This document shows positions 22,212 through 50,872 of a stretch of DNA of 51,461 bases, one piece after another. The notes beneath the pieces are model-generated. The model saw only the letters and a program-made list of their open reading frames with translations. It was not told the origin of the DNA and searched no databases. Source of the stretch: a virus; IMG/VR virus record IMGVR_UViG_3300020129_000348, positions 1 to 51,461 of that record; one strand, given 5' to 3'. Position numbers and translations under genes: made by a program. Each line of letters starts with the position of its first letter. The stretch's first letter is position 1.

Positions 22212-22275
22212 TGTTGGCGCTCTTCTCACTTTCGGTTCGTCGGTTGATCCTCAATGCCGTTCGCGCTATGAGGCA
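22212..22275 (-). repeat. Cassette 3' arm of unit 1
   Basis: The + strand reads TGTTGGCGCTCTTCTC at the outer end and GTTCGCGC at the inner end. On the - strand it encodes the tail HSANGIEDQPTNRK of the unit's gene, whose TGA lies in the arm. An inner CGG/CCG stem is possible. Confidence 0.85.
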
Positions 22276-22717
22276 GGCATTCGAAGATCAACAGGCCATT
22301 CTTGGTTACTCCGCATTGTCGATAACCGGCCTTCAGAAAGCATCGGCCAGGATCGCGCTTGTGGCGTACCTTCTTGGGGTCAACGTAGGTGTACAGGCGT
22401 TCGCCGGGCCAGCGTTGCCATGCAATCTCGTTCGCCAACCGGATGAGTTCGCTCGACCGTCCCGAAGTACTGCCTTCGTTTCGGAAGACCGCACAATTAA
22501 CGCCAACCTGTCCATTGTCGCTTTTGAATTTGCGCCACGCGAACAGCGCACGTGCATCAGGAGTCAGCAGAAGCGTTTTCTCGCCAGGGCCAACCAACTG
22601 GAATATTTTACGGAAGGCACGCGCCGTGTAGTGCCGCTTGAACAGCGACATTGCAGTCGTGTTGCCATCGCGGATCGGAATCCAGCCGACGCCAAACAGA
22701 AATGGCTGTTCACTCAT
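22226..22717 (-). CDS. Conserved phage protein, possible GNAT/Mom-like fold
   Basis: The product has 163 residues from ATG at 22717. It reads IPIRDGNTTAMSLFKRHY, FQLVGPGEKTLLLTPDARAL, FAWRKF, NCAVFRNEG, then AWQRWPGERLYTYVDPKKV and CGVTKNGLLIFECLP. I know this family from many phage genomes as an uncharacterised protein. The terminal part recalls an acetyltransferase fold like that of DNA-modifying Mom proteins, but this is only a suggestion. The C-terminal 14 residues come from the cassette arm. Confidence 0.65.
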   Translation of the reverse strand: MSEQPFLFGVGWIPIRDGNTTAMSLFKRHYTARAFRKIFQLVGPGEKTLLLTPDARALFAWRKFKSDNGQVGVNCAVFRNEGSTSGRSSELIRLANEIAWQRWPGERLYTYVDPKKVRHKRDPGRCFLKAGYRQCGVTKNGLLIFECLPHSANGIEDQPTNRK

Positions 22718-22732
22718 CAGTACCACTCTTGC

Positions 22733-22788
22733 CCAGCGCACGCACGAAAGCAAGGTCCGTTTAGCACAGTACTGAGACAAGCGCCAAC
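22733..22788 (-). repeat. Cassette 5' arm of unit 1
   Basis: The + strand reads CCAGCGCACGCACG to GACAAGCGCCAACGAC. This subtype is shared almost exactly with the 5' arm of unit 2 (23941). The inner end lacks the AAATGAGGCA leader of most 5' arms. Confidence 0.75.
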
Positions 22789-22807
22789 GACATAAAGAGG
22801 AACCTAA

Positions 22808-23257
22808 ATGCAATACACTATGAATCAGTACTCACCAAGCTATCTTCAAGGGGTCAACCCCGCTCCGTCGTCCGAAATCGGATTCGAGCCACGGCCCTAC
22901 ACTTACCTGTACTCACCGGCGAATGGTCAACTCACGGCTTTGCAGGTTGTAAACCAGGACTCGGTTGCAATTCAGACTGACGCTGATTTTCTACTGTTCG
23001 GCTTCTATCTTTCACAGTTCACCGGCGCATTTCAAATCCTGTTGACCGATGCAACCGGCTACCAACTGTTCAGCGGGTTCATGAACTCGGGAGCGATTTC
23101 ACAGTCAAGTGCTGATCCGACTGTATTCAGCCCTTCTCACCCATTTCCAGCAGGAGGAAAGATTCTGATTTCAATCCAGGACCTCTCGAATGCGACGAAC
23201 CCACTTCAGATTGCTTTCGTGGGCGAGAAGATGTTCCGGGTTAAACTCAATCAGTAG
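22808..23257 (+). CDS. Beta-rich putative virion protein
   Basis: The 149-residue protein starts at ATG after AGAGGAACCTAA; a second ATG six codons on is possible. It has no signal peptide or membrane helix. The composition is Ser/Gln/Phe-rich with alternating strands (DFLLFGFYLSQFTGAFQILL, KILISIQDLS). It stands between cassettes 1 and 2, in line with other virion-type genes. A minor capsid or spike role is inferred from position only. Confidence 0.5.
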   Translation: MQYTMNQYSPSYLQGVNPAPSSEIGFEPRPYTYLYSPANGQLTALQVVNQDSVAIQTDADFLLFGFYLSQFTGAFQILLTDATGYQLFSGFMNSGAISQSSADPTVFSPSHPFPAGGKILISIQDLSNATNPLQIAFVGEKMFRVKLNQ

Positions 23258-23264
23258 GCTTTTA

Positions 23265-23326
23265 TGTTGGCGCTCTTCTCAAGTGCGGTTCGTTGGCTGC
23301 GGATTCTCGGCGTTCGCGCTCTGAAG
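23265..23326 (-). repeat. Cassette 3' arm of unit 2
   Basis: Outer TGTTGGCGCTCTTCTC, inner GCGTTCGCGCTCTGAAG. On the - strand it encodes the tail LQSANAENPQPTNRT. It starts a few bases after the TAG of the + gene at 22808. Confidence 0.85.
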
Positions 23327-23926
23327 CACGAATTCTTTACAGTCGCACGGGACACATGGAGCATTTGTATCATGGATGCCGTGGCCTTTTCTGCCGCTGC
23401 AAAGCTGGCTATTGGCAGGATGATGGATGTACCATGGATGCCCGCATTGACAGAGTTCACTCCAGAGACGTTGCCTTTCAGCACGCACGCTATGAAACTG
23501 GCGTTCCACTGCGCGGATGATTGCATATCGACAATGGTTGCAAATATCGTCCGCTTGCCTCAACGCCGGGTTGCTTTCCATCAGCGCGTGTGCGCAATCG
23601 CCGTGAAAATGAAGGCCAGTCAGATCAGTGATAGCTGCGGCGAAGTTTTTGTACGAGATCTGCCGGGCCGTCGCGGCGGCTTCCCAAGAATTCTGCTGAA
23701 GTATCAAGTCGCGGCACGCCGCGCAGATGTCTCCTTGTTTTTCACACAGCACCCTAGAACAATTGTTGCAGTAGTAACCGCCAAGGGCATGGCGCACAGC
23801 TTCAGGGAGTTTTTGGTCATCAATCCGCTGTTTGAGTGTGCTGATCATCCGAGATGTCATCCGACGCGTATCAAGGATTCGCTGGTCGAGATCATACAGC
23901 CGCTCTTCAAGCTCTTCTGGGGTCAT
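23279..23926 (-). CDS. Multi-zinc-ribbon protein (cargo of unit 2)
   Basis: The product has 215 residues from ATG at 23926, with an N-terminal coiled-coil-like region (EELEERLYDLDQRI). Four or five CxxC-type knuckles follow (YCNNCSRVLC, ICAACRD, ICNHCRY, CQCGHPWYIH and CVPCDC), so it probably binds several zinc ions and may contact nucleic acid or protein. The last residues are encoded by the cassette arm. No specific family is recognised. Confidence 0.6.
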   Translation of the reverse strand: MTPEELEERLYDLDQRILDTRRMTSRMISTLKQRIDDQKLPEAVRHALGGYYCNNCSRVLCEKQGDICAACRDLILQQNSWEAAATARQISYKNFAAAITDLTGLHFHGDCAHALMESNPALRQADDICNHCRYAIIRAVERQFHSVRAERQRLWSELCQCGHPWYIHHPANSQLCSGRKGHGIHDTNAPCVPCDCKEFVLQSANAENPQPTNRT

Positions 23927-23940
23927 GCCTTGCACTGTAG

Positions 23941-23997
23941 CCCAGCGCGCGCACGGACGCAAGGCCCAGTCAGCCTAGTACTGAGACAAGCGCCAAC
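23941..23997 (-). repeat. Cassette 5' arm of unit 2
   Basis: CCCAGCGCGCGCACGG to ACAAGCGCCAAC on the + strand. It shares its last 24 bases almost identically with the 5' arm of unit 1, which suggests that the two units share a recent origin or were copied from each other. Confidence 0.75.
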
Positions 23998-24008: not shown

Positions 24009-25190
24009 ATGCCCCAACTCTATACAGTACCGCCAGGCTACTACGACCTACCCTTCAGTTGGATCTACGAAGGAGCAGACTTAACAGACGGATCAAACGT
24101 GCTGAACCAAGTCGTACCAATCCTCGGCGGCTATGGGGATTTTGTACTCCGTCGAATTGTAGGAGCGGATACGATTGTAAATCCAAGCGGAGGAAAAATT
24201 CAGGTCCGGGACCGATCGTTGAACTACATCCAGTCGGATCCTCTGTTCGCACAATGCGCTCCCGACATTGCAATCGCGCCGGAACTGTTCTATCCCGAAA
24301 ACGGCGGCATTCGCTTCGACCTCTACAAGGTACTTCGAGAAACCGGCTTCGTAATCCCCGGCGCACCGGCAATCTACTCCCAGCTTTGCTTTCAAGGTGC
24401 GCGGCGGCTCAAGGGGGTCTACCCATTCAAGCAAACCTACGACCGGTACAATCCAAAGACCTTCGCTTACGTGACTTCATTCACCTTGACGAATCCATTT
24501 CTCCCGCCAGACGGGTTGAATGGAACGATCACGCCAATCTTTCAGAAAGTGACAGACTACGACTTCGAGTTGCTTGAGTTGCGGCTCGTTTACACCACGG
24601 CTGCAAGCGTAACTGTGTCTGACGGCCTCTTAGTCCCAGATGGCACCGTATGGGGCTTCAACACGCCAGGAACGTCGGGAAACGGATCTACGCTGACCAT
24701 TACGGGAGGACCAGCACTAAATCAAGTCTTGACCTTCACTGTGACAGGTACAAACATTGCAGTTCAGCTTGCGACCGATGGAGGAGGACTGGTAACGACA
24801 GACATTGCAACCTTGGTCGCCGCGGCGAATGCAAATCCGGCCGTCCATGCTCTCGTTACGGTGAGCGGTTTCGGAGCAGTCAATGGAACACTCGCCCCAA
24901 CGACAGGAGGATTACCCGTTGCTTTCGCCGGCGGTGGAGTAGTTCCAACCAATGCGAGCTCAGCCAAACTTTTCATTTACGACGCCCACAATCACCCCAT
25001 TTCAAACGTGCTTGGACTTGACCAGTTCTTTAATCGTATTCAGTTCGGAGGATTTCAAAACGGAGCCTTCGTCCCAACGCTTCTGTATCCCAAAGATCAT
25101 CAGATCCGGGTTGACGTGCAGAGTCTTACTTATGGAGTGCCGCTTGGATTGACGTTCAACTGGATTGGCAAGCAGAGGATTCCGTGCTGA
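24009..25190 (+). CDS. Large beta-rich putative virion protein
   Basis: The 393-residue protein starts 12 bases after the unit 2 arm and lacks a clear Shine-Dalgarno site. The N-terminal 205 residues (YDLPFSWIYEGADLTDGS, GGKIQVRDRSLNYIQSD, FDLYKVLRETGFVIPG) look like a folded capsid-type domain. Residues about 205-315 are Gly/Thr/Val-rich and resemble an inserted Ig-like domain, after which the first domain resumes (AKLFIYDAHNHPISN, HQIRVDVQSLTYG). Such decorated barrels occur in capsid and spike proteins. Identity is inferred. Confidence 0.5.
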   Translation: MPQLYTVPPGYYDLPFSWIYEGADLTDGSNVLNQVVPILGGYGDFVLRRIVGADTIVNPSGGKIQVRDRSLNYIQSDPLFAQCAPDIAIAPELFYPENGGIRFDLYKVLRETGFVIPGAPAIYSQLCFQGARRLKGVYPFKQTYDRYNPKTFAYVTSFTLTNPFLPPDGLNGTITPIFQKVTDYDFELLELRLVYTTAASVTVSDGLLVPDGTVWGFNTPGTSGNGSTLTITGGPALNQVLTFTVTGTNIAVQLATDGGGLVTTDIATLVAAANANPAVHALVTVSGFGAVNGTLAPTTGGLPVAFAGGGVVPTNASSAKLFIYDAHNHPISNVLGLDQFFNRIQFGGFQNGAFVPTLLYPKDHQIRVDVQSLTYGVPLGLTFNWIGKQRIPC

Positions 25191-25195: not shown

Positions 25196-25630
25196 CTATC
25201 TTATGTGTTGGCGCTCTTCTCGGGGTTCTCGAACGGTCCTGACCTTTCGAGGTTTCGCGCTCTGAGCTTTCAACCCGATCAGATGCTCGTGCATTTGTTC
25301 GAGCTCGGCGAACCGCATACACTTCTGGCAGTGAAGATCACAGCGTGGGTACTCGCAGAGCACCAGGCGCTTGACGAGAATTGGAAGGCCCAGGTAGCGG
25401 ATTGTGAAATGCCGTCCCTGCTTCGTCTCAATCAACACCGCATCGGGATCGTCGCTTCGGATATCGATCTTCGAAACCGTGTAGAGCGTTCCGTCTTTCT
25501 TCCCGTCTGGCCGGATGATGTCGTTCAGCGCAAGATCAAGCGGATGGATGATGGTCCAGTCCCGATGCATCCGCTGACACAGGCCGGTAGACGGATCGCC
25601 GCAGAAGGTGCAAATGCTGGCCGGGTCCAT
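25196..25630 (-). CDS. Zinc-ribbon protein (cargo of unit 3)
   Basis: The 144-residue protein has CTFC near residue 7, a Cys at about 18, and CDLHCQKC near residue 97, which suggest zinc binding; the middle is beta-rich (GRHFTIRYLGLPILVKRL). The reading frame runs through the cassette arm in a different frame from most cargo genes and ends REERQHIR. It is followed upstream by another small Cys protein, with a three-base gap. Confidence 0.55.
   Translation of the reverse strand: MDPASICTFCGDPSTGLCQRMHRDWTIIHPLDLALNDIIRPDGKKDGTLYTVSKIDIRSDDPDAVLIETKQGRHFTIRYLGLPILVKRLVLCEYPRCDLHCQKCMRFAELEQMHEHLIGLKAQSAKPRKVRTVREPREERQHIR
25206..25266 (-). repeat. Cassette 3' arm of unit 3
   Basis: Outer TGTTGGCGCTCTTCTC, inner TTTCGCGCTCTGAG. 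It contains a perfect six-base inner stem, CTCGAA with TTCGAG, unrelated in sequence to the inner stems of other arms but in the same place. Confidence 0.85.
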
Positions 25631-25633
25631 AGC

Positions 25634-25963
25634 TTACTTGTCAGGGAACTCAACGTATGCGCCACGGTAGCCCGTTCCGACTTCGCTCCGTGCGCTTCTA
25701 TCCTCACGTTCTTTCCGTGCGCAATTGGGACAGCGGTGATTTGGTCCGAATTGATCCGTGGTTTCCCAGCCAACTTTCATGGCGGCCGCGTCAGCTTCTT
25801 CACGGCTAGAGAACAGCGCGATCGGCGAGTCCTTTTCATTCGGCAGTGGAATCTTCATACCGCTCGAAACAACTACGACGCCATTGGTCAACAGCGGCGC
25901 ATAGGGCTTCCCCTTGCCATCCATGAACCGCTGGCAGCCACAACACAAGACTGCGACTTTCAT
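25634..25963 (-). CDS. Small Cys-motif protein (cargo of unit 3)
   Basis: The product has 109 residues; the start at ATG 25963 is chosen for GGAAGG just upstream. It has LCCGCQRF near residue 7 and HRCPNCARKERED near residue 75, together forming one zinc ribbon. It is a typical small phage accessory protein without an assigned function. Confidence 0.55.
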   Translation of the reverse strand: MKVAVLCCGCQRFMDGKGKPYAPLLTNGVVVVSSGMKIPLPNEKDSPIALFSSREEADAAAMKVGWETTDQFGPNHRCPNCARKEREDRSARSEVGTGYRGAYVEFPDK

Positions 25964-26021
25964 GCCTTCCAGCATCCCCCATCGTCCATCGCGGCGCAAG
26001 GGACCTCAGTACCAGTACCCG

Positions 26022-26077
26022 TAGGGCGAACGCTGGAAAACCAGTACTCCCGAGCCACAGTCGAGAAGAGCCTCAAC
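26022..26077 (-). repeat. Cassette 5' arm of unit 3
   Basis: GTAGGGCGAACGCTGG to GAGAAGAGCCTCAAC. The terminal pairing is kept with one wobble (GGGC with GCCT), and an inner CTGG/CCAG hairpin with an AAAA loop is present. Confidence 0.75.
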
Positions 26078-26079: not shown

Positions 26080-26361
26080 ATGAACGGCACAGAAAAACTG
26101 GTATTTGTAATCTGCCAGGTCTGTACAAAGAACTCACCTCGAATAAACAAGTGCGCATCCTGCTACCATTACGAAGAGCGGAAGGAGACGAGACCGACTG
26201 TGAAATGCACGTTCTGTTCATTTGAGAATCCGATACCTCCGTTTTCAGGGATGTGTTTGAAGTGTGGAGCGGGTGTTTCTTTTTCGGTTGGCGCTCCTCT
26301 CGTCAATCTCTCATCGGTAGCAGCACCTTGCGTTCGCGCAAATGAGGCGCTGAATGTTTGA
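26080..26361 (+). CDS. Small zinc-ribbon protein reading into a cassette arm
   Basis: The 93-residue protein starts three bases after the unit 3 arm. Four Cys pairs (ICQVC, KCASC, KCTFC, KCGAG with MCLK) suggest two zinc ribbons. From about residue 68 the frame enters the 5' arm of unit 4 and ends in arm sequence (CVRANEALNV). The natural end has probably been replaced by the arm. Confidence 0.5.
   Translation: MNGTEKLVFVICQVCTKNSPRINKCASCYHYEERKETRPTVKCTFCSFENPIPPFSGMCLKCGAGVSFSVGAPLVNLSSVAAPCVRANEALNV
26286..26348 (+). repeat. Cassette 5' arm of unit 4
   Basis: GGTTGGCGCTCCTCTC at the outer end and GCGTTCGCGCAAATGAGGC at the inner end. GAGG lies six bases before the ATG of the first cargo gene, so the arm supplies the ribosome-binding site. 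Confidence 0.85.
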
Positions 26362-26617
26362 CAACCGGCCGCCTCGTAAAGATTTGAGCAGTCCAGAATG
26401 CATCGTTCTGCTGTCAGGCATCGCCGAGGGTATTCTACCGATGACACAGGACGCCAAGACGCTCAGGGAAGCCTTTGCATTTATCGCCAGTGCGGATCTC
26501 TTGTGGGAAGCTTTTGAGCTAAAGCGTCAAGCTGCGGAAGCTGCACTGAAAACAGTTGATCCGCAGATTCTCCGTAACATACTTGGCATTGTTGACGACA
26601 AAGGGCGGGCGCAATGA
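26354..26617 (+). CDS. Small helical protein (cargo of unit 4)
   Basis: The 87-residue protein starts at ATG served by GAGG in the cassette arm. It is largely helical (LREAFAFIASADLLWEAFEL, QAAEAALKTVD). No motif is recognised. It overlaps the next gene by ATGA. Confidence 0.5.
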   Translation: MFDNRPPRKDLSSPECIVLLSGIAEGILPMTQDAKTLREAFAFIASADLLWEAFELKRQAAEAALKTVDPQILRNILGIVDDKGRAQ

Positions 26618-26898
26618 CGAAGGCCCAGCGAGAAGCCCATAAAAAACAGAAGCCGCGTAAACGCTTTAGCAAACTGAAGCCGCCTAAAGGATACCGACGG
26701 AACCAGCCGATCGCCGGGCTTCTTTCCGAAGGCCAACTGATCGACCTCGCGTTCAGTCACATGTGCGCACAATTCATTACGGACTTGCTGCCAACCGAAA
26801 CGAAGCGCGATTTGCTTCAGAGGGCGAACGCTGGAAAGCTTGTGGCCGTAGTCGATAGCGGAGAAGAGCCCCAACAACAAAAAGAGACGATTCAATGA
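26614..26898 (+). CDS. Small basic protein with arm-encoded tail (cargo of unit 4)
   Basis: The 94-residue protein has a basic N terminus (KAQREAHKKQKPRKRF) and a helical middle. The last 28 residues (LQRANAG onward, then SGEEPQQQK) are encoded by the 3' arm. Its stop overlaps the start of the virion-type gene at 26895. Confidence 0.5.
   Translation: MTKAQREAHKKQKPRKRFSKLKPPKGYRRNQPIAGLLSEGQLIDLAFSHMCAQFITDLLPTETKRDLLQRANAGKLVAVVDSGEEPQQQKETIQ
26815..26875 (+). repeat. Cassette 3' arm of unit 4
   Basis: CTTCAGAGGGCGAACGC to GAGAAGAGCCCCAAC. GGGC pairs with GCCC; an inner GCT/AGC stem replaces the GCGG/CCGC stem found at the same place in related arms. Confidence 0.9.
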
Positions 26899-27386
26899 AC
26901 CCCTCCCTACCCAACTATCCAATCATCGACGGCTTTCTATTGGATACAACGCTCCGTTGTAACCTGACCTTCAAATCTTTAGCTCTAGCAAACTACGAAG
27001 CACTTCGAAGAGCAGGGGCGTATCGTTCTAAAATGTGGACAGTTCCAACCGATCCGGCGAACGTCTCAATTCCAGCCCGTGATGCGTTTGAGTATCAGTG
27101 CTTTCTACCGCCTGGTTCCGCAGTGTGGGGCTACATCTTCAACGCACCGCAAAATCAGTTCTCATTTCAAGTCAAGGACGCCTGTACCGACGTGCCGATC
27201 TGGAGTGAGCCGATAGTATCAACTGGGCAGCGGCGCAAGCAACAGCGGCTCTCTAAGCTTCTTGTAGTGGGGAATCCTGGATTGCTCTCGGTCGAGATTT
27301 GCAACTTGACATCGAATGCACAAACTGGGATTCAGTTGATACTGTGTGGCGGGATTCCTGTTGAGCCGGGAGTCTGTTCGTCATGA
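26895..27386 (+). CDS. Beta-rich putative virion protein
   Basis: The 163-residue protein has no signal or membrane segment. It has a balanced beta composition (FLLDTTLRCNLTFKSLALAN, GSAVWGYIFNAPQNQFSFQV, GLLSVEICNLTSNAQTGIQL), like a single beta-barrel protein. It continues the series of virion-type genes that the cassettes separate. Identity is not established. Confidence 0.5.
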   Translation: MNPSLPNYPIIDGFLLDTTLRCNLTFKSLALANYEALRRAGAYRSKMWTVPTDPANVSIPARDAFEYQCFLPPGSAVWGYIFNAPQNQFSFQVKDACTDVPIWSEPIVSTGQRRKQQRLSKLLVVGNPGLLSVEICNLTSNAQTGIQLILCGGIPVEPGVCSS

Positions 27387-27589
27387 ACCGGCCAGAGTTC
27401 AAGTTTGACGAACGCAGTCTAGTGCCCGTATCCGCCATCAGTAAACAGGGATACGTTTTCGTTGAGGTTCGGGGAGGGCTGATTGTGATGCCATCGCTTC
27501 GGAGGGCGCACGCGGAAACTCGCAAGCCGTCGCTTAGCGCCGAGAAAAGCCCCAACAAAAAAACAGGAGACTCTACATGCGGAGTCTAG
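27383..27589 (+). CDS. Short protein with arm-encoded tail
   Basis: The 68-residue protein starts with ATGA overlap. About 38 residues precede the arm (VPVSAISKQGYVFVEVRGG); the tail RRAHAETRKPSLSAEKSPNK is arm-encoded. It overlaps the start of the next gene by 13 bases. No 5' arm is seen, so this interval lies between two 3' arms of like orientation. Confidence 0.45.
   Translation: MNRPEFKFDERSLVPVSAISKQGYVFVEVRGGLIVMPSLRRAHAETRKPSLSAEKSPNKKTGDSTCGV
27497..27556 (+). repeat. Cassette 3' arm (solo)
   Basis: CTTCGGAGGGCGCACGCGG to GAGAAAAGCCCCAAC. GGGC/GCCC pairing is kept; the inner stem GCGG/CCGT uses one wobble. The same-orientation arm before it is at 26815. Confidence 0.85.
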
Positions 27590-28332: not shown

Positions 28333-28408
28333 ATAAATTCAGGCGGCGCGTGGTGAATGCAAGGCGACTCATTCGGACGGGCGATTCAAACGATTGGAAC
28401 CGTGATCA

Positions 28409-28615
28409 CTATGGGTTTTCCGCGTTCGCGCTATTGGCAGGCGCGAGTTGGTGTAATGGCCGTCCTTCAACGTGCGCGTCGTACTCTTCAGCCGCCCATG
28501 CGAGAACACCGTATGCCGTACTGATCCAACCGCATGAGCATTCCACGCTCCAGCCATTGTGCTCTTCGTTCCAGACGACGCCCTTTGCAGCAGCATGTTC
28601 TTGTGTGTTTGTCAT
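28409..28615 (-). CDS. Small zinc-binding-like protein (cargo of unit 5)
   Basis: The 68-residue protein reads HNGWSVECSCGWIS followed by WAAEEYDAHVEG, a short Cys/His pattern I know from small actinophage and phage proteins (CxCG with a later H). The tail NSANAENP is arm-encoded and the stop falls in the remaining half arm. Confidence 0.55.
   Translation of the reverse strand: MTNTQEHAAAKGVVWNEEHNGWSVECSCGWISTAYGVLAWAAEEYDAHVEGRPLHQLAPANSANAENP
28421..28437 (-). repeat. Degenerate cassette 3' half-arm of unit 5
   Basis: Only the inner box (GCGTTCGCGCTATTGG on the + strand) is recognisable; the outer TTGGCGCTCTTCTC part has been lost or replaced. It still encodes the NSANAENP tail of the gene at 28409. 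Confidence 0.5.
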
Positions 28616-28690
28616 GAATCTATTCTACCCCTTTCCTCCTTCTCTTGGAATCCCCCTTCAGTACTAATTTCACGCCCCAAACACCTTAGC

Positions 28691-28749
28691 CCAGAGCGCG
28701 AACCGCTGACAGCCCAACCTGCCACCCACACCTGAGAAGAGCGCCAAAC
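28691..28749 (-). repeat. Cassette 5' arm of unit 5
   Basis: CCAGAGCGCGAACCGC to GAGAAGAGCGCCAAAC, followed by an A-rich run. The terminal GCGC/GCGC pairing is kept. Confidence 0.8.
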
Positions 28750-31547: not shown

Positions 31548-31550
31548 GTG

Positions 31551-39885: not shown

Positions 39886-39890
39886 ATCAG

Positions 39891-42598: not shown

Positions 42599-42655
42599 CG
42601 TTGGCGCTCTTCTCAGGGATCGTTGACAGTTTGAAGACGTCACGTTCGCGCTATG
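42599..42655 (+). repeat. Cassette 5' arm of unit 10
   Basis: CGTTGGCGCTCTTCTC outer and CACGTTCGCGCTATGG inner. Inner stem TGAC/GTCA. The start codon of the first cargo gene lies in the inner end itself, without the AAATGAGGCA leader. Confidence 0.85.
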
Positions 42656-42940
42656 GATACCAGACCAGTTGAGAAAGCAGAAATTATCGGTGTTCAGTTC
42701 AACTCGCTCGGACGACGGACCTGGATACTGAAGGGCGATCCGAGGGCTGATCGAGAACCAACTACCCGGCTACTGATGGCTCAGCCGACAATGCGGCGAT
42801 TAGAAGCGTTCCGAAGTGGAGCTATGGCGCGCTGTCAAGGACTTCCGCGTAAACCACATTGGAACCGGGACTCGCTTGGGGCTTACCATTTCGGCATCGG
42901 ATGGGACGCCGCCGATCTTAAGATTCGAGACTTATCATGA
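42653..42940 (+). CDS. Small basic protein (cargo of unit 10)
   Basis: The 95-residue protein has its ATG in the end of the 5' arm. It reads IIGVQFNSLGRRTWILKGDP and AYHFGIGWDAADLKIRDLS. It overlaps the next gene by ATGA. Function unknown. Confidence 0.5.
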   Translation: MDTRPVEKAEIIGVQFNSLGRRTWILKGDPRADREPTTRLLMAQPTMRRLEAFRSGAMARCQGLPRKPHWNRDSLGAYHFGIGWDAADLKIRDLS

Positions 42941-43161
42941 AACGGTTGATTGTGGAAAGCATTGGGATGGCTCTGATGTTCGGGGCGATGTGGGGACACA
43001 ACGCAATACTCAACCTTCCCGTATTCCAATTTCATTGGAGGCCGTGGCTGGCTGGTGGTCTCATCTGGCTTTGCTCCGGGATAAATACTAATCTCATGAA
43101 TGCCTACCGCAAAATCAAAGCTTCAGAGGGCGAACGCGAAGACCCTCAACCTCCGCGTTGA
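42937..43161 (+). CDS. Double-span membrane protein with arm-encoded tail (cargo of unit 10)
   Basis: The 74-residue protein has two membrane helices (VESIGMALMFGAMWG and WLAGGLIWLCSGI) with a short loop, followed by ASEGEREDPQPPR encoded by the 3' arm. Size and topology recall holin-like proteins. No further evidence. Confidence 0.5.
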   Translation: MKRLIVESIGMALMFGAMWGHNAILNLPVFQFHWRPWLAGGLIWLCSGINTNLMNAYRKIKASEGEREDPQPPR

Positions 43162-43180
43162 CAGCCGAGGAAAGCCCCAA
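43121..43180 (+). repeat. Cassette 3' arm of unit 10
   Basis: CTTCAGAGGGCGAACGCG to GAGGAAAGCCCCAA. A perfect six-base inner stem AACGCG/CGCGTT overlaps the GCGAACGC box, and GGGC/GCCC closes the arm. Confidence 0.9.
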
Positions 43181-43690: not shown

Positions 43691-43755
43691 GGTTGGCGCT
43701 ATTCTGAACTGTCAGCGGAACGGTTGAGCCACTTTGCGTTCGCGCAAATGAGGCA
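43691..43755 (+). repeat. Cassette 5' arm of unit 11
   Basis: GGTTGGCGCTATTCTGAAC outer and GCGTTCGCGCAAATGAGGCA inner. A perfect five-base stem GAACG/CGTTC overlaps the inner box (read on the - strand). Confidence 0.85.
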
Positions 43756-43766
43756 GGGGTAGGCAC

Positions 43767-43997
43767 GTGCCGCACGAGTTTGATAGGCGTATTCAGCTTT
43801 CGGTGGGAACTATACGCGTCCATTTCCAGATCCCAAACGTCTTTGCCCTAACTGGAATTGACCGGGACTTCGTGTATCAAATCATCGACGCGGTGAACCA
43901 CTACGAGCATAAACAGCTTCAGAGGGCGAACGCGGAAAAACCGCTACCGACGAGCGACAGCGGAGAAGAGCCCCAACCTAAAAGGAACAGAGAGTGA
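43767..43997 (+). CDS. Short protein with arm-encoded tail (cargo of unit 11)
   Basis: The 76-residue protein starts at GTG about 12 bases after GAGG in the arm. About 50 residues (IQLSVGTIRVHFQIPNVFAL, DFVYQIIDAVNHYEHK) precede the tail LQRANAEKPLPTSDSGEEPQ. No family is recognised. Confidence 0.5.
   Translation: MPHEFDRRIQLSVGTIRVHFQIPNVFALTGIDRDFVYQIIDAVNHYEHKQLQRANAEKPLPTSDSGEEPQPKRNRE
43917..43977 (+). repeat. Cassette 3' arm of unit 11
   Basis: CTTCAGAGGGCGAACGCGG to GAGAAGAGCCCCAAC. GCGG/CCGC hairpin with an AAAAA loop, an alternative CCGCT/AGCGG stem, and the closing GGGC/GCCC. Confidence 0.9.
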
Positions 43998-44422
43998 TTC
44001 AATCCCTCGACAAACGAACCGGCACTCTCTGGTATTGCACTGAATGCCCCGCTTCTGGTGTTCTAACGTGGCTGGAAGGAAATCCCGGAGTATGGGCGGT
44101 ATCTGAAGCCCTCCGGGAAGCTCACGCGGTCCACTGGCTCGCAATACGCATACTTGTACCGAACCGCTGGAAGATGGACCTGGACACGGCGGGAAACCAA
44201 TTATGCGGCATGTTGCGCGTCCTAAAAGATGTCTTACAGGTAGACATGGAATGCGATGGACGCTCCAATGGGCCAGTGCAAGAGAATCTTGATCCTGAAC
44301 TGTTGGCGCGGGTGCAAACCGTTATCAAAAGGGCCGAAGAGCTTCAGAGGGCGAACGCGGGAGAGCCGCAACCGACGAGCTACAGCGGAGAAGAGCCCCA
44401 CTATAAAAGGAGCGAGTCATGA
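43994..44422 (+). CDS. Soluble protein with arm-encoded tail
   Basis: The 142-residue protein has a GTG start overlapping the unit 11 gene stop. It reads GTLWYCTECPASGVLTW (one CxxC), HWLAIRILVPNRWK and a helical end before the tail LQRANAGEPQPTSYSGEEPH. It lies between two 3' arms of like orientation. Confidence 0.5.
   Translation: MIQSLDKRTGTLWYCTECPASGVLTWLEGNPGVWAVSEALREAHAVHWLAIRILVPNRWKMDLDTAGNQLCGMLRVLKDVLQVDMECDGRSNGPVQENLDPELLARVQTVIKRAEELQRANAGEPQPTSYSGEEPHYKRSES
44342..44401 (+). repeat. Cassette 3' arm (solo)
   Basis: CTTCAGAGGGCGAACGCGG to GAGAAGAGCCCCAC. Inner GCGG/CCGC hairpin with a GAGAG loop. It is the closest relative of the arm at 43917, differing at scattered bases. Confidence 0.9.
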
Positions 44423-44766: not shown

Positions 44767-44830
44767 TGTTGGCGCTCTTCTCATCTGTCTTTCGTAGCTT
44801 GAGCCACTGGGCGTTCGCGCAAATGAGGCA
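44767..44830 (+). repeat. Cassette 5' arm of unit 12
   Basis: TGTTGGCGCTCTTCTC outer (with TTTTTA before it) and GCGTTCGCGCAAATGAGGCA inner. GAGG is six bases before the cargo ATG. No strong inner stem is seen. Confidence 0.9.
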
Positions 44831-44833
44831 GCC

Positions 44834-45076
44834 ATGAACCTGAACGACCTCTACCCGCGCGGAACAAAGCTGGTGGACGTACCGCCCGATTTCACCGGTA
44901 TGCCGGTAGCTGAATGGCAACGTCTGAAGATGCAAGAACAGTTCGACGCATACCGAGTTGCCGCCGATGCCGCTGGGCCACAGACCGAAGGCGCACTCCG
45001 CGACTGGAAGCGCTGCAAAGGTCAGGAGTGGCGCGGCAAGGCGTTAGCTACGAAGCGGGATGGCTACGGGAAATGA
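44834..45076 (+). CDS. Small soluble protein (cargo of unit 12)
   Basis: The 80-residue protein has an ATG served by the arm's GAGG. It reads NDLYPRGTKLVDVPPDFTGM, MQEQFDAYRVAADA and a basic end. It overlaps the next gene by ATGA. Function unknown. Confidence 0.55.
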   Translation: MNLNDLYPRGTKLVDVPPDFTGMPVAEWQRLKMQEQFDAYRVAADAAGPQTEGALRDWKRCKGQEWRGKALATKRDGYGK

Positions 45077-45327
45077 AGATCGAGATTCAGTCCTGCACAA
45101 TCACCACAGTCATGAACACATCCGACAAACCGGATGCTCTTGTAGTCAGACTTGCCGAGCAAATGGCGTGGTCTAAGAAGTTCGCAGACCTGCAAGAAGA
45201 GACAACGCTGGACGCCAAGCTATCGACCGCCCGTACAATCATTCTCCTAGTCGGGCTTGTCGCTTCCGTTGCGTTCAATGTTTACCAGTTCATCGCATCC
45301 GTGATTGCCTCAGAGGGCGCACGGTAG
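45073..45327 (+). CDS. Single-span membrane protein (cargo of unit 12)
   Basis: The 84-residue protein has a soluble N-terminal part (DALVVRLAEQMAWSKKFADL) and one membrane helix (IILLVGLVASVAFNVYQFI). It ends ASEGAR, encoded by the arm, the same end as the cytosine methyltransferase. Confidence 0.55.
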   Translation: MKIEIQSCTITTVMNTSDKPDALVVRLAEQMAWSKKFADLQEETTLDAKLSTARTIILLVGLVASVAFNVYQFIASVIASEGAR

Positions 45328-45371
45328 AAAACTCACAACCGTTGCGTTGACCGTTGAGAAAAGCCCCAAAC
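45308..45371 (+). repeat. Cassette 3' arm of unit 12
   Basis: CCTCAGAGGGCGCACGGT to GAGAAAAGCCCCAAAC. Five-base inner stem ACGGT/ACCGT and closing GGGC/GCCC. Confidence 0.9.
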
Positions 45372-45685: not shown

Positions 45686-45747
45686 TGTTGGCGCTCTTCA
45701 GGGCTGTCTCTCGTAGCCAGCGCCGATCAGCGTTCGCGCAAATGAAG
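45686..45747 (-). repeat. Cassette 3' arm of unit 13
   Basis: TGTTGGCGCTCTTCAGG outer and GCGTTCGCGCAAATGAAGC inner. Inner stem GGC/GCC. Unusually the cargo gene stops just before the arm, and the inner end is of the AAATGAAG form otherwise seen in 5' arms. Confidence 0.85.
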
Positions 45748-45749
45748 CT

Positions 45750-46540
45750 TTAGGTGAAGCATCCCTCAACACAGCCACGCTCGGCAAACATCGTATTTTG
45801 AGCAAAGAAGTCTACCTCGCCAAGCGGCATGCACGATGGATGCAAGTAGAAGTGGGGATCAATCGCGCGTAGATCGCGGTCGGTTTCACAAGCCAACTTG
45901 AAATCTTCGGGCCAGTTCAATTTCATGTCGATCCATTCCGAATCCGCGTGGTTTGGGCAAAGGTAACACGCTGAATGTGGAATAGGCCCATCCCATGTTT
46001 CCCGGATCAATGCAACGGTAGTGTCCTAATTTAGGACACTACCAATGCAACGCATTGATTGACACGCATCGGAACGTCAAACAACAACGGATATCTGATC
46101 TGTAGCCATTTCACTCGTGGACGGCGAACCCGGCTCATTTCGTTGAGTGAAATACCTATCCAGTTGGTTGCGCTCTCGACTCCCAGCGAACGCAAATAAC
46201 GCATCAATACTTCGCGCTTCCACTCGCCGGAACAATACGGTTCCAGTTTCCCGAGTGAGCCGCTTTGGTTTGTAAACCCCGGCAGCAACACTAATCCTTT
46301 GGTGCTGAGGAGGTCCACGGTCGCCCAATCGTCCTTTTTGATTATCGTTAGTTCCAAGCCGACCTCGGCCAGCTTCGGGCGAATGAATCCATCGACAAAC
46401 GGCCATGTCGAAGACCGCTCCCGGCCAGTGTTCGTCATAACACAAAGGTCAGGACGCGGCAACCGGCCCTGGCGGATTAACTCGGCTATCGCGCCGCTCT
46501 GCCTACCTCCACCACAGGACCATACTTGAAGATCTTTCAC
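45750..46540 (-). pseudogene. PAPS-reductase-like gene split by a palindromic insertion
   Basis: From GTG 46540 (GAGG in the cassette arm) the frame reads VWSCGGGRQSGAIAELI, VMTNTGRERSSTW, then IGISLNEMSRVR and FDVPMRVNQCVAL before a stop. It resumes in another frame with IRETWDGPIPHSACYLCPNH, FYLHPSCMPLGEVDF and a Cys-rich end. These halves together match a phage phosphoadenosine-phosphosulfate-reductase-like (PP-loop) family, normally one chain of about 250 residues. Removing 35 inserted bases restores 252 codons exactly. Members near phage defence and modification genes may act in nucleotide or sulfur chemistry. Confidence 0.8.
46008..46051. mobile_element. 26-bp palindromic insertion with 9-bp target duplication
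   Basis: The 9-base string CAATGCAAC occurs at 46008-46016 and again at 46043-46051. Between them lie 26 bases that are the two halves of a perfect inverted repeat (GGTAGTGTCCTAA facing TTAGGACACTACC around one T). This looks like two terminal inverted repeats of an insertion sequence joined without a body, or an assembly collapse of such an element. It breaks the reductase-like gene. Confidence 0.8.
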
Positions 46541-46544
46541 GCGT

Positions 46545-46608
46545 GCCTCATTTGCGCGAACGCAAGGTGCTGCAACCCACGAGAGGTAGTCCAGAAGAGC
46601 GCCAACAT
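46545..46608 (-). repeat. Cassette 5' arm of unit 13
   Basis: TGCCTCATTTGCGCGAACGC to CAGAAGAGCGCCAAC on the + strand. On the - strand GAGG stands six bases before the GTG start. Inner GCA/TGC stem. Confidence 0.9.
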
Positions 46609-47879: not shown

Positions 47880-48067
47880 GGACGCCCTATGTACCATTTC
47901 GTCATCAGCACTCCAACCGAGCAGAAGAAACACCGCTCAAACCAATCTTGGACTCGCGTGGCCGATGGTTGCCATAACTCTGGCCATAGCCATGCCGACA
48001 AGCCCATGAACAGTGTGTTGGCAGCTATCAGTATCAGAACAACGATCAAGGCGTCTTTAAGGGTCAT
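47876..48067 (-). CDS. Small double-span membrane protein
   Basis: The product has 63 residues from ATG 48067, with GGAGG at good distance and ATGA overlap with the HNH gene. Two membrane segments (ALIVVLILIAANTLFMGLSA and CFFCSVGVLMTKWYIG). It is the second holin-like candidate of this cluster. Confidence 0.55.
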   Translation of the reverse strand: MTLKDALIVVLILIAANTLFMGLSAWLWPELWQPSATRVQDWFERCFFCSVGVLMTKWYIGRP

Positions 48068-48504
48068 CGCCGCACCTCCATAATCTGGGCCACCCGATCC
48101 GCACAGCACAGGTCCTTTGCGATTTGCCACGCCTTCTTAATTCCACAGGAGACGGGACACAATCGGTATCGGTCCGAGTCCATGTAGCACACGAAATCAC
48201 GGTCATTCTCGTGCCCTATCCGAACTATCACCGGCCCCTCAATCCTGATTGCTGGACGCATGGTCAATTTCCAGAGAATCGTAGGCAGATCAAGTTTATA
48301 CTTCTCAACGAACACCCTCAGCCCAACGCGATGCTGTTCCCGGTGATGCGGCTGGCACAGCGGAATCGTTTCCAGGTCTGAGCACTTCTGCCCCATTCCC
48401 CGGCTGCCGACGTGTGCGGCTTCTACGTTTCGCTTAGAAAAGCAGACGACACAGGGTTGTGTTCTTATCCACTTCAGATGAGCTGATGATCGGGTTGGAG
48501 TCAT
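48064..48504 (-). CDS. HNH-family nuclease (DUF968-like)
   Basis: The 146-residue protein begins with AHLKWIRTQPCVVC, then EAAHVGSRGMGQKCSDLETI and PLCQPHHREQH, the zinc-bound fold of phage DUF968/NinG-related nucleases that act in recombination and branch processing. The C-terminal half carries more Cys (LCPVSCG, LCCADRV). It overlaps the unit 14 gene's end by four bases. Confidence 0.7.
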   Translation of the reverse strand: MTPTRSSAHLKWIRTQPCVVCFSKRNVEAAHVGSRGMGQKCSDLETIPLCQPHHREQHRVGLRVFVEKYKLDLPTILWKLTMRPAIRIEGPVIVRIGHENDRDFVCYMDSDRYRLCPVSCGIKKAWQIAKDLCCADRVAQIMEVRR

Positions 48505-49007
48505 GACGATTCTTTTGCGTTGGCACTTTTCTCGGGCGCGGTTGACGGGTTGGAGTTTGGTTCGTGCGCGCGCTGGGCGAATATCGACGGTCCAACCCGC
48601 TGGACTGTGGCGATAAGCCGTTCAGCTTTAGTCCATGCTCTAGCCACTCTGGTTTCCCAGCGTTTAGTGGTTGTCTCAGGCCTGAATCCGTTCGGGTAGA
48701 AGTCCACAATACGCTCCAGTACCTTCCGCAGTTGTGGCCCCACCATCGCAAGAGTTTCAGGCGTGATTGTGTGTCCAGAACTGGTGAACGTGTCGGTTGG
48801 AAATGCCATCCAACGGTACAGAATGAAACACAGATCATACACCAGAGCTTCACGATCCGGCACAGTCTCAGCCAGCCGAGCTTTGATCTCAAACAGCCAA
48901 GGGACGCTCCACGGATCACGCGGAGGTTTCGGCCAATGCTTTGGTTCTCTTTTGGGCGGTCGCGTTGCGGCCAGAGCTTCAGCTTTACCGATCAATTTCT
49001 TGCTCAC
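48501..49007 (-). CDS. Helical protein with EKSAN tail (cargo of unit 14)
   Basis: The product has 168 residues from GTG 49007, six bases after a perfect GGAGG. It reads REPKHWPKPPRDPWSVPWLF, ALVYDLCFILYRWMAFP, TLAMVGPQLRKVLERIVDFY. The tail NSNPSTAPEKSANAK is arm-encoded. No family is recognised. Confidence 0.6.
   Translation of the reverse strand: MSKKLIGKAEALAATRPPKREPKHWPKPPRDPWSVPWLFEIKARLAETVPDREALVYDLCFILYRWMAFPTDTFTSSGHTITPETLAMVGPQLRKVLERIVDFYPNGFRPETTTKRWETRVARAWTKAERLIATVQRVGPSIFAQRAHEPNSNPSTAPEKSANAKESS
48518..48579 (-). repeat. Cassette 3' arm of unit 14
   Basis: GCGTTGGCACTTTTCTCGGG outer and GTGCGCGCGCTGGGCG inner. The closing pair has become GCGC with GTGC, still pairing by wobble. 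It encodes the EKSAN tail. Confidence 0.8.
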
Positions 49008-49188
49008 GATTTGCCTCCACCTGAAACGCGCGAACCAACGCCCGGTCGAGCAGCCGTAATTCATCGCGGATCTTCCGCTCAAACCATCCCTCGCCATGCG
49101 CGAACGGCATCAGACAGGCAGATTCAATCTCGTTCAAACACGAATAGGCCAAGATCATACCGATCAGAAACTCTGAGTGATTGAACAT
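48985..49188 (-). CDS. Small helical protein (cargo of unit 14)
   Basis: The 67-residue protein reads FLIGMILAYSCLNEIESACL and KIRDELRLLDRALVRAFQVE. It overlaps the next gene by about 20 bases and contains that gene's GGAGG site in its last codons. Function unknown. Confidence 0.5.
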   Translation of the reverse strand: MFNHSEFLIGMILAYSCLNEIESACLMPFAHGEGWFERKIRDELRLLDRALVRAFQVEANREQEIDR

Positions 49189-49190
49189 GT

Positions 49191-49505
49191 TTATCTCGGC
49201 CCCTGTTCCATTGATGGCCGCACATTGACCACCAGAAGTCCGTCGTCGAAGACGTTGAAGGTGATGTCCCAGTATTTAGCTTTCGCCCATGTGCCGCATG
49301 CTGGACGCGGCCATAAATGCACCCATCGTATCCGCTCTGGATCGTGATGCCCATCTCGAATAATCCAGATATCCCCTTCGTTGTCGCCATTCCCGTCCCA
49401 GCAATCTATGACCCGAGCGTGATCAAGCCACATCCATTTGCTTCTCGATGCGGTTTGACAACCAATCACTAAGAGCAATGAGAGGCATACAAACCAGAGC
49501 CTCAT
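49191..49505 (-). CDS. Lipoprotein starting inside a cassette arm (cargo of unit 14)
   Basis: The product has 104 residues; the ATG is the one inside the arm's AAATGAGG box. A signal peptide with lipobox LVIGC gives a lipid-modified Cys at residue 16. The mature part reads DHARVIDCWDGNGDNEGDIW and WDITFNVFDDGLLVVNV. Because a correct signal peptide begins exactly at that ATG, the arm demonstrably serves as a start site here. Confidence 0.65.
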   Translation of the reverse strand: MRLWFVCLSLLLVIGCQTASRSKWMWLDHARVIDCWDGNGDNEGDIWIIRDGHHDPERIRWVHLWPRPACGTWAKAKYWDITFNVFDDGLLVVNVRPSMEQGPR

Positions 49506-49561
49506 TTGCGCGAACGTCTGTGAGGCTCTAGTTACGAGCCAAAGCCGAGAAGAGCGCCAAC
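49499..49561 (-). repeat. Cassette 5' arm of unit 14
   Basis: GCCTCATTTGCGCGAACG to GAGAAGAGCGCCAAC. A five-base inner hairpin GGCTC/GAGCC. On the - strand its AAATGAGG contains the lipoprotein start codon. Confidence 0.9.
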
Positions 49562-49931
49562 GACTAAAAAAGTGGAAGTTCATAAGACCGAGGATAAAGG
49601 CGAACAACAGACAAAGCCAATAGGAACAAGGTACTATTTTACGAAGAAAAACACCGCAGTACGAAATAGGGCCTTTTCAGAAGTGAAGTTTTGGAGTAGA
49701 CTGAAACCCTGTGAAACTACCAGCGAATCTCCCTAACGAAGTGAAAACGCCGTGAAGATTCGACACTCCGAGGTAGCGAGAGGTCCGTAAACAACTGTGG
49801 CGTCCGAGGTTCCACTCTCGAACGCCACGATAAACCAACCCATTGCAGAAAGGCGACCAAACCTAAATGCTCCTACAGATTAACACATCCCGCAGACCTG
49901 TCAAGTACCAAAAAGCAGTAGTTTCTTTATA
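49562..49931. other. Gene-free 370-base gap between divergent cassettes
   Basis: No convincing coding frame is present. It lies between a - strand unit and a + strand unit, so promoters for both are expected, but no good -35/-10 pair is seen. It has several short repeats of CCGAGGT and one strong hairpin at 49797-49828. It could hold a small RNA or a regulatory or replication site. Confidence 0.5.
49797..49828. promoter_or_regulatory. Strong hairpin in the gene-free gap
   Basis: GTGGCGT pairs with ACGCCAC and, after one unpaired base on each side, CGAG pairs with CTCG around an eight-base loop. No T-run follows on either strand. It may be part of a structured RNA or a protein-binding dyad. 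Confidence 0.6.
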
Positions 49932-49993
49932 CGTTGGCGCTCTTCTGAACGCTAAGTTACGGTCAGCAGCACCTAGCGTTCGCGCAAATGAGG
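49932..49993 (+). repeat. Cassette 5' arm of unit 15
   Basis: CGTTGGCGCTCTTCTGAACG outer and GCGTTCGCGCAAATGAGG inner. It holds the longest inner stem of the set, seven perfect pairs (AACGCTA with TAGCGTT). Confidence 0.9.
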
Positions 49994-50000
49994 ATGGGGC

Positions 50001-50465
50001 ATGATCTGGCCACATCGTGTGATCGACGACACATGCAGGCCGGAAGCTGGCCCGATGCTCATCCGGTATTTCCTGTTCCGGTCCAAATACCTCGGCATCT
50101 ACCTCCACCACTTTCTACGCTCAGACAACGACCGCCATGTCCATGACCATCCCTGGACTTTCATCACATTCTTAATCGGTGGTGGCTACTGGGAACACAT
50201 TCCAAAAAATCACGAGGCCGGTTGGTGTGGTTGTGGAGCATGGCACCTCCGACGAAACGACGACTTGCTACCGTACATTGCCCGCATACGCCGTCACCGA
50301 TTCAGTATCTTGTACCGACCCGCAACCTGGCGGCACTGGGTTGAAATCGACAAGCCAGCATGGACGCTGGTGTTTCGTTTCCGCCGCGAACGTGACTGGG
50401 GATTCATTACGGAAAAGGGCTGGGTGGATCATGCAACCTATGACAGGGAATGGTGCGACGAATGA
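50001..50465 (+). CDS. Cupin-like phage protein (cargo of unit 15)
   Basis: The 154-residue protein has an ATG after the arm's GAGG. It reads YLGIYLHHFLRSDNDRHVHD, HPWTFITFLIGGGYWE, then HRFSILYRPATWRHWVEID. The H-x-H/D residues followed by a Gly turn and a later His suggest a metal-binding double-stranded beta helix (cupin). The reaction is unknown. It overlaps the next gene by ATGA. Confidence 0.65.
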   Translation: MIWPHRVIDDTCRPEAGPMLIRYFLFRSKYLGIYLHHFLRSDNDRHVHDHPWTFITFLIGGGYWEHIPKNHEAGWCGCGAWHLRRNDDLLPYIARIRRHRFSILYRPATWRHWVEIDKPAWTLVFRFRRERDWGFITEKGWVDHATYDREWCDE

Positions 50466-50872
50466 AAACTAGGAGTGCGGAGCAGATTGCGGTTGTCAAT
50501 TGGTTCTACCGTAACGGCGGGAAAGCTACAGCACTTAGCGCGACAAAACGCATCGCCGAAGAACTCAAGGAGCTACTGGACGCCGTTGAGCATGGCGATT
50601 TTGAGCACGCACGAGAAGAAGCCGCGGACGTAGGGATTTGCCTATTGATGGCCTCAGAGTGCCTCGGCTTCGACTTATTTGCGGCGATGCGCTGGAAGCA
50701 ATCCATAAACGACCACCGCCAATGGCACGCGGATGAACACGGCTGCCTGCATCACGTCAAAGGCACAGACCCGCGCGATTCCAGCCCGGCTTCAGAGGGC
50801 GCACGCGAAGAGCTACTGACCCTCGCTGACAGCCGAGAAAAGCCCCAACATAAAAACGGAGAGAAAGGATGA
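50462..50872 (+). CDS. MazG-like nucleotide pyrophosphohydrolase (cargo of unit 15)
   Basis: The 136-residue protein contains RIAEELKELLDAVEHGDFEH followed by AREEAADVGICLLMASECLG, the EExx(E)...ExxD metal-binding helices of all-alpha MazG-like or dATP/dGTP pyrophosphohydrolases. It would hydrolyse nucleoside triphosphates to monophosphates. The tail ASEGAREELLTLADSREKPQ is arm-encoded. It overlaps the HNH gene by ATGA. Confidence 0.75.
   Translation: MKTRSAEQIAVVNWFYRNGGKATALSATKRIAEELKELLDAVEHGDFEHAREEAADVGICLLMASECLGFDLFAAMRWKQSINDHRQWHADEHGCLHHVKGTDPRDSSPASEGAREELLTLADSREKPQHKNGEKG
50790..50849 (+). repeat. Cassette 3' arm of unit 15
   Basis: CTTCAGAGGGCGCACGCGA to GAGAAAAGCCCCAAC. Inner GCGA/TCGC stem and closing GGGC/GCCC. 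Confidence 0.9.

Follow-up and report, generated by a model that had tools for sequence, protein, structure and literature searches.

The virus record IMGVR_UViG_3300020129_000348 (51,461 bases, 53% GC; the whole stretch is called the window below) carries dozens of related repeats of about 60 bp, here called arms, most of which face one another in inverted pairs around small accessory genes. The question raised by this locus is whether the arms are the ends of gene cassettes that come and go, signals that regulate neighbouring genes, or stretches of homology through which related phages exchange genes. Our analysis found that the cassettes are real, non-random, shared within a phage family and mobile over evolutionary time. 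As judged by sequence comparison, they are laid out in inverted order, are present at a junction in some phages and absent from it in others, occur both filled and empty, and carry homologous cargo in different contexts. The best explanation, to which we assign a rough probability of 60%, is that they are non-autonomous, transposon-like cassettes of phage genes, the ends of which serve a phage recombinase as recombination sites; both the enzymatic movement and the identity of the enzyme are what we infer.

Arms and units in the window

The 14-base word TTGGCGCTCTTCTC, allowing up to two mismatches, has 37 matches in the window, where shuffles predict 0.56 (maximum 3), and the two-block pattern TTGGSGCTYTTCTC-N(20-45)-CGTKCGCSC was found 15 times against 0.00 in 100 shuffles. 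A covariance model, trained on 34 window arms so that its matches to those 34 are by construction, recognised 36 arms and rejected two of the 37 word matches (9953 and 37042). An additional degenerate left arm, judged by eye, lies near 28361-28431 with its inner block at 28422. The original prediction, made from the letters of the window, spoke of thirty-seven related repeats; the 36 arms recognised by the model are far above chance.

The 36 arms comprise 14 inverted pairs, one arm with the degenerate partner and seven solo arms (Table 1), in good agreement with the fifteen inverted pairs predicted; unit sizes of 248-1041 bp likewise correspond to the range of 254 to about 1044 bases given earlier. 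Fourteen arms are in plus and 22 in minus orientation, and the next arm after every plus arm is a minus arm. This gives 14 convergent plus/minus neighbours, the maximum possible, and no plus/plus neighbours, an arrangement matched by 4 of 20,000 label shuffles. Units sit between genes, and the strand of the cargo varies among them, running with or against the operon; minus-strand cargo among plus-strand genes is found in units 22214-22787, 23267-23996 and 25208-26076. Not every arm is a paired unit end: of the seven solo arms, five overlap gene 3' ends, one is intergenic (6096) and one is cut by the contig end, so that its partner cannot be judged.

Each arm consists of a T-rich flank, an outer block TTGG(C/G)GCTCTTCTC, about 27 variable bases and an inner block CGTTCGC(G/C)C, which is followed, for example, by AAATGAGGC or CTCTGAAGC. 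Inspection by eye indicated that arms of the AAATGAGGC type, in which GAGG is a Shine-Dalgarno-like word, lie mostly 5' of the cargo start codon, and that arms of the CTCTGAAGC type mostly overlap the cargo 3' end and are translated as the cargo C-terminus. Window units can combine a GGCGC-type arm with a GGGGC-type arm, and a pairing between the two arms of a unit was considered and rejected, the arms being no closer to each other than to arms of other units. Selection for open frames through the arms was considered and rejected, as none was found overall in comparison with shuffles: inward-read open frames were fewer than in shuffles for the family A arms found in the window (z -7.5) and somewhat more numerous for the family C arms of relatives described below (z 3.1), with the other four tests between -1.1 and 0.8. 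No known RNA family was found in the window at gathering thresholds, and no tRNA was found by a tRNA search of the window.

A Pfam scan of 17 unit-cargo proteins of the window revealed two that reach the cut-off, one with an ASCH domain (31551-32117) and one with a MazG domain (50462-50872), both as anticipated from the sequence. Of the zinc ribbons that had also been proposed as cargo, one zinc-finger match was recovered, under the Pfam cut-off (23279-23848), and the gene at 46031-46540, described earlier as PAPS-reductase-like, had no Pfam match. Fourteen of the 17 proteins had no Pfam match at E 0.01, and no transposase or recombinase was recognised by Pfam among the 17. The cargo of other records was covered by four recombinase and transposase profiles over 10 records.

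Table 1. Cassettes, solo arms and the serine recombinase gene of the window
Feature	Position	Strand	Details
Cassette	22214-22787	-	arms 22214-22276(+) and 22728-22787(-); cargo 22226-22717(-), 163 amino acids
Cassette	23267-23996	-	cargo 23279-23848(-)
Cassette	25208-26076	-	two cargo genes, 25196-25630(-) and 25634-25975(-)
Cassette	26288-26874	+	two plus-strand cargo genes
Cassette	28361-28747	-	degenerate left arm, right arm 28686-28747; cargo 28409-28615(-)
Cassette	31485-32107	+	cargo 31551-32117, ASCH domain
Cassette	35195-35511	-	cargo 35188-35514(-), frame crosses both arms
Cassette	39213-39950	-	two minus-strand cargo genes
Cassette, smallest (248 bp)	40546-40793		no cargo gene called
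Cassette	42601-43180	+	cargo includes 42937-43161
Cassette	43693-43976	+	cargo 43767-43997
Cassette	44769-45369	+	cargo 44834-45076 and 45073-45327
Cassette	45688-46605	-	cargo 46031-46540(-) and 45750-45926(-)
Cassette, largest	48520-49560	-	cargo 48501-49007(-) and neighbours
Cassette	49934-50848	+	cargo 50001-50465 and 50462-50872 (MazG domain)
Solo arm	1-50	-	truncated at contig end
Solo arm	3155-3217	-	3' end of helicase-methylase gene 71-3250
Solo arm	6096-6157	-	between 5191-5973(+) and 6178-7887(-)
Solo arm	27494-27555	-	3' end of 27383-27589
Solo arm	34226-34288	-	3' end of 33062-34255
Solo arm	42121-42182	-	3' end of 41632-42192
Solo arm	44339-44401	-	3' end of 43994-44422
Small serine recombinase	32114-32746	+	Pfam Resolvase, E 1.9e-39; outside cassettes

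Arm families and orthologous junctions in related phages

A search with a conserved structural protein (10072-10740) yielded 32 loci of one phage family, and profile searches revealed that nearly each arm-rich record carries one arm family. Family A occurs in the window, G002, G003 and L022; family B in G006 and L072; and family C in L068, L073 (= G004), L074, L075, L078 and L087, five C-family records being 70-74% identical in nucleotides where alignable. G004 is the only mixed record, with three A arms besides its C arms. Viral contig pattern scans counted 32 A arms in G002, 31 in G003 and 0-10 in several further records. G006 has its structural operon in common with the window and no A arm; the word TTGGCGAC occurs in it in 30 copies against 2.0 expected, and TTGGCCTC occurs in 48 kb of G004 in 40 copies against 1.7 expected. 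Over-represented words in L076 (TTCTCCTGCCGA) and L091 (TTTGGGCTC/CGTTCACCA) possibly represent more arm families. Among the named phages compared, no relatives were found of window 8000-20500, of the 222-amino-acid protein, of the 569-amino-acid protein or of a filled C unit.

Across 15 records, 80 convergent arm pairs were identified, 77 of which have both arms from one family; the profile used for these cross-record counts was weaker than the window model, and the right arm 22728-22787 escaped it. The inverted order goes beyond what label shuffles give for the window, G004 and L074; for G002 and G006 it does so at p 0.02-0.03. Absence of arms from the structural operon (7956-20523), proposed for the window, holds there, as no arm was found between 6157 and 22214, but it does not hold in relatives, where arms or units lie inside this operon in L022, G002, G003 and C-family phages. 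The contig L022 (3.2 kb), which comes from a Terriglobales genome bin, carries four A arms forming two units. It was the only strong match among eight pattern matches in bacterial genomes, the other seven scoring 12-23 bits under the arm model. Since the model matched only four of 399 genomes of the class of this bin, namely the bin itself and three weak cases (27-29 bits), the arms look like a phage feature and not a bacterial-chromosomal one.

Empty sites, on which the cassette idea of the original prediction depended, were found at orthologous junctions. The C-family records supply the clearest examples. After window gene 7956-8636, the next gene overlaps by ATGA in the window and L035, a cargo-less unit of about 140 bp with two arms lies in L087, L075 and L073, and the junction of L074 measures 690 bp and holds a 180-codon gene with a hydrophobic C-terminus between the same arms; in L078 it measures 307 bp, with one recognised arm. 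Base-by-base comparison elsewhere revealed a 138-bp unit in L074 where the genes of L087, L075, L073 and L078 overlap or abut, and units in L073 and L075 correspond to direct junctions in L074, L072, L035 and L077. A 494-bp unit of L074 faces 0 bp in L075 and 10 bp in L078; the same junction measures 202 bp in L073 and 346 bp in L087, both without recognised arms.

Window units show the same relation to G006, in which unit 23267-23996 is replaced by a stop/start overlap TAGTG and units 25208-26076 and 26288-26874 by an ATGA overlap; in G006, the window gene between these junctions (24009-25190) has its matches in two distinct called genes. The first unit of L022 separates the orthologues of two window genes, 12061-12273 and 12270-12719, that overlap by 4 nucleotides in the window. 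Its second unit precedes a gene that is most similar to L035 11786-12298 (50% over 38 residues, E 5e-5); in L035 this gene overlaps its upstream neighbour by 4 nucleotides. The match of the L022 gene to window 12719-13177 reaches only E 0.19. Where occupied junctions were read base by base, the neighbouring genes keep their stop and start codons. The comparison of ten records gave 73 rows in which a direct junction in one record faces a gap of 100 bp or more in another. The wide version contains a recognised arm in 35 of these rows, which correspond to 26 of the 53 different wide stretches, some of them lying within one another.

Cargo and arms have also been shuffled. The cargo 22226-22717 and its homologues are enclosed by A arms in both the window and G002 and by B arms in G006, and a unit of G003 (40007-40950) combines homologues of genes that lie in two different units of the window. 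Homologous cargo, which the original prediction proposed to look for at other loci, does occur at more than one place and in more than one arm family. In G002 (20840, 22425 and 23569, identities 0.90-0.95) and in G006 (25370/28331, 0.94; 31784/40564, 0.98), nearly identical arms are flanked on either side by unrelated sequence. Two tandem B arms in G006 (31393 and 31445; L055 12393-12500) lie 52 bp apart, the first shortened, and it appears that an arm or unit landed inside another arm.

Candidate enzyme and competing explanations

A small serine recombinase was the sole mobility enzyme recognised; its start in the window lies 7 nucleotides from the outer end of an arm. It was found in seven of nine arm-rich records larger than 40 kb (window, G003, G004, G006, G416, G417 and G418); arm counts for G412 and G416-G418 come from one locus each, and G001, G007, G009 and G012, which had none, were left out of the counts of this tally. 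In all seven the recombinase start lies -5 to 13 nucleotides from an arm outer end, against a baseline of 78 of 552 genes, which corresponds to a naive probability of 1.1e-6 that ignores kinship. The catalytic motif YxRVST is invariant in the seven recombinases, and the C-terminal DNA-binding part looks, by eye, different between arm families. In a comparison with named phages, recombinase matches elsewhere stayed below 60% identity. Serine recombinase genes commonly adjoin their own sites, and the best reading of the arms is that they would be sites for this serine recombinase or a trans-acting relative. A k-mer hunt for an arm beside the recombinase in phages without a known arm family was suggestive at most.

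Other enzyme classes were not recognised. The tyrosine recombinase profile PF00589 matched none of 10 records and 14 of 14 control genomes, and PF01797 (Y1 transposases), PF00665 (rve) and PF01609 (DDE_Tnp_1) matched none of the 10 records and 5, 6 and 9 of the 14 controls, respectively. A gene for a DUF968/HNH-type nuclease (48064-48504), a possible further recombination protein, lies outside the units of the window and has homologues in G002, G003, G004 and G011.

In the mechanism that we favour, a cassette would consist of inverted ends of about 60 bp around zero to two accessory genes, each end being composed of an outer block TTGGC.., about 30 variable bases and an inner block CGTTCG or its lineage-specific counterpart. 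It would insert precisely at gene junctions, often stop/start overlaps, leaving both genes intact, and cargo could then be gained or lost between the ends, a cargo-less unit measuring about 140 bp. A recombinase particular to the phage lineage and provided in trans would use the ends as its DNA sites; the likeliest candidate is the small serine recombinase whose gene lies next to an arm. A stronger version, in which serine recombinase and lineage-specific inverted sites form a dedicated system of this phage family that builds, empties, refills and moves single-gene cassettes at stop/start junctions, is put forward more tentatively, as a possibility that we consider rather less probable than its negation. 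If true, it would mean that operons grow by precise insertion and that viruses possess a counterpart of the integron with another enzyme class and another site geometry.

Several results weigh against movement by such an enzyme. Convergent pairs in G003, L087, L075 and L072 do not exceed shuffles at p 0.05, and 38 of the 73 wide junction rows have no recognised arm. The serine recombinase was not found in arm-rich G002 and G412, nor in G011, which has terminal repeats and few A arms, and six of 19 other relatives larger than 35 kb have the recombinase with no A, B or C arm in the single stretch scanned in each. The seven phages with an arm-adjacent recombinase are related, so these cases are not independent events. 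No target-site duplication was found: the direct repeats at the flanks of 66 units did not exceed in length those of mismatched pairings (p 0.41 for A, 0.52 for B and 0.21 for C), despite ATGA-like words visible by eye on both sides of some units, and old insertions could have lost a duplication. The absence of excess flanking repeats also argues against an ordinary DDE transposon. Finally, the two arms of one unit do not, on average, resemble each other more closely than arms taken from separate units do (0.687 and 0.696 for A, 0.698 and 0.703 for B, 0.655 and 0.644 for C), which indicates that most units are old.

The folding of the arms bears on two of the alternatives weighed below. Analysis of 118 distinct arms revealed two strongly coupled position pairs, of which 5-61 is Watson-Crick (C-G 98, G-C 13, T-A 3, T-G 2) and 9-57 is not (C/T 91, T/G 24, three exceptions); positions 5 and 9 vary independently. 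Both couplings are nearly perfect over about 45-50 nucleotides of an otherwise highly variable stretch. The pattern points to a contact between the two blocks, which may be made by strand folding or by a protein. Folding energies compared with dinucleotide shuffles, on both strands and with RNA and DNA parameters, gave mean z values from -0.41 to +0.47 in twelve settings (standard error about 0.1). The two lowest, -0.41 for the inner part on the TTGG strand with DNA parameters and -0.26 for the whole core on the opposite strand with RNA parameters, are slightly stabler than shuffles and far short of structured RNA. The arms had been described as structured; the coupled pairs are in keeping with that description, but energies this close to shuffles make it overstated, and we do not call the arms structured.

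Gene exchange through the arms could proceed without any dedicated enzyme if they were short homology linkers, between which ordinary homologous recombination of co-infecting relatives swaps cargo. This would account for near-identical arms with different cargo, for a recombinase that is not universal and for the absence of target-site duplication; in most of nine cargo-less C units, moreover, the left inner block reads GTTCGACC and the right CCCGACC, an asymmetry that would preserve cargo orientation under such exchange. We nevertheless regard it as unlikely, since it leaves unexplained the insertion of a 138-bp unit at a bare overlap of sister phages, an inverted order as strict as that of the window, G004 and L074, and the conservation of two short blocks around about 30 freely varying nucleotides. 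Less likely again is that the arms regulate genes from their starts, as RNA or operator sites comparable to mycobacteriophage start-associated sequences, with a lineage-specific factor reading them and their pairing a by-product of compact operons. Many left-arm inner ends bear a Shine-Dalgarno-like GAGG or GGAGG near cargo start codons, 78 of 552 genes begin at the outer end of an arm, some orthologues have a start-adjacent arm in phages of all three arm families (for example window 42189, G004 4469 and G006 26064), and the two coupled position pairs would suit such an element. Against this stand the three antisense units in plus-strand operons named above, the presence and absence of units at orthologous junctions, folding near shuffles, and the fact that left and right arms are reverse complements, so that a single RNA-level signal cannot serve both.

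The remaining alternative, that the arms act like integron attC sites, with a folded single strand used by a recombinase and cassettes exchanged as circles, we consider very improbable. Conserved ends around a variable middle are what it expects, and the independent couplings 5-61 and 9-57 would on one strand form a short GC stem beside G.A-type mismatches; each cassette, however, has two inverted sites and not one direct site, folding is close to shuffles, and no tyrosine recombinase family was found in the 10 records.

Clean single-gene pickup by phages is usually ascribed to illegitimate recombination plus selection. The present phage family seems to bound its accessory genes with standard ends, of which one locus shows both empty and filled copies, and the layout looks like a standing route by which phages gain, lose and swap such genes. 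The end sequences are lineage-specific, as if matched to their own enzyme, which makes the question testable, and the arms offer a sequence handle with which accessory genes of uncultivated phages can be retrieved from metagenomes.

The structural operon (7956-20523) encodes numerous small proteins whose C-termini carry a hydrophobic stretch and KK/RR, and it is an uncharacterised virion type. Its non-enzyme proteins 10072 and 16384 had no Pfam match above cut-off, proteins 10072, 16384 and 18788 had no PHROGs match, and fold prediction for a conserved 230-amino-acid structural protein was useless (mean pLDDT, predicted local distance difference test, 33). Two glycosyltransferase genes (17661-18791 and 19330-20028) lie inside it; distant relatives of the first occur in Manatee Spring phage records, with glycosyltransferase matches at 23-34% identity. 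Internal repeats of structural genes that are 71-79% alike (15734-15861/21259-21314 and 12924-13093/13664-13833) suggest duplicated modules in structural proteins.

Comparison with known systems

A literature search, which covered neither preprints nor most subscription journals, found no description of this layout. Integron cassettes, T4 mobile cassettes and miniature inverted-repeat transposable elements (MITEs) had been named as the nearest ideas, each differing from the units described here, and our comparison supports this, the differences lying in site geometry and enzyme, in layout and in target-site duplication, respectively.

Integrons hold arrays of small accessory genes whose attC sites have conserved borders and a variable middle, and their cargo is swapped. 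The phage cassettes share the arrays of accessory genes, the conserved-border sites and the swapping of cargo; they differ in having two inverted ends per cassette, no tyrosine integrase (10 records) and ends that are not measurably folded. In the Hin and Gin invertases and the Tn3 resolvase, a small serine recombinase gene lies beside its own site. Adjacency of recombinase and arm is also seen here, but the arms are about 60 bp long, are built of two separated blocks and number dozens per genome; the adjacency is the only part of the likeness that was observed. Mobile regulatory cassettes of T4-type phages (Arbiol 2010) are reportedly short modules with a promoter and a stem-loop between genes, for which gene shuffling was proposed; relative to these, the present arms differ in forming inverted pairs around cargo.

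Start-associated sequences and their extended forms (SAS/ESAS) in cluster K mycobacteriophages are, in the available text of PMC3203893, repeats at gene starts with a consensus per genome and 17-bp inverted repeats, which lie upstream of genes and are kept at the same genes with one exception. The phage arms bracket cargo, antisense cargo included, whereas bracketing is not a feature of SAS/ESAS as described in that text (PMC3203893). Two other phages of our set carry hairpins that recall SAS elements, G011 (L048, L049) a different element with changing stems and the fixed loop CCTGGAGTTG, and G005 (L033, L050) hairpins with changing stems and the fixed loop CTGGAGTAG; at least some of them lie directly upstream of gene starts.

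Mobile insertion cassettes (MICs), MITEs and Tn3-derived inverted-repeat miniature elements (TIMEs) have, according to the available text of PMC3129680 and PMC4133298, inverted ends around passenger genes or nothing, multiple copies and solo ends. The likeness extends to a position between genes, to the lack of a transposase seen inside and to movement supposed to occur in trans (PMC3129680, PMC4133298, as far as that text goes). The window cassettes are set apart by their place in a phage genome, where about 15 are present, by exact stop/start junctions and by ends that differ by phage lineage, as well as by the absence of a target-site duplication and of any transposon found with the same ends, a serine recombinase being the only mobility enzyme recognised nearby. 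As neither a target-site duplication nor a parent transposon was found, they are not filed as MICs or MITEs, though they work like them, and their nearest kind is the non-autonomous passenger cassette bounded by inverted repeats, as represented by MICs, MITEs and TIMEs.

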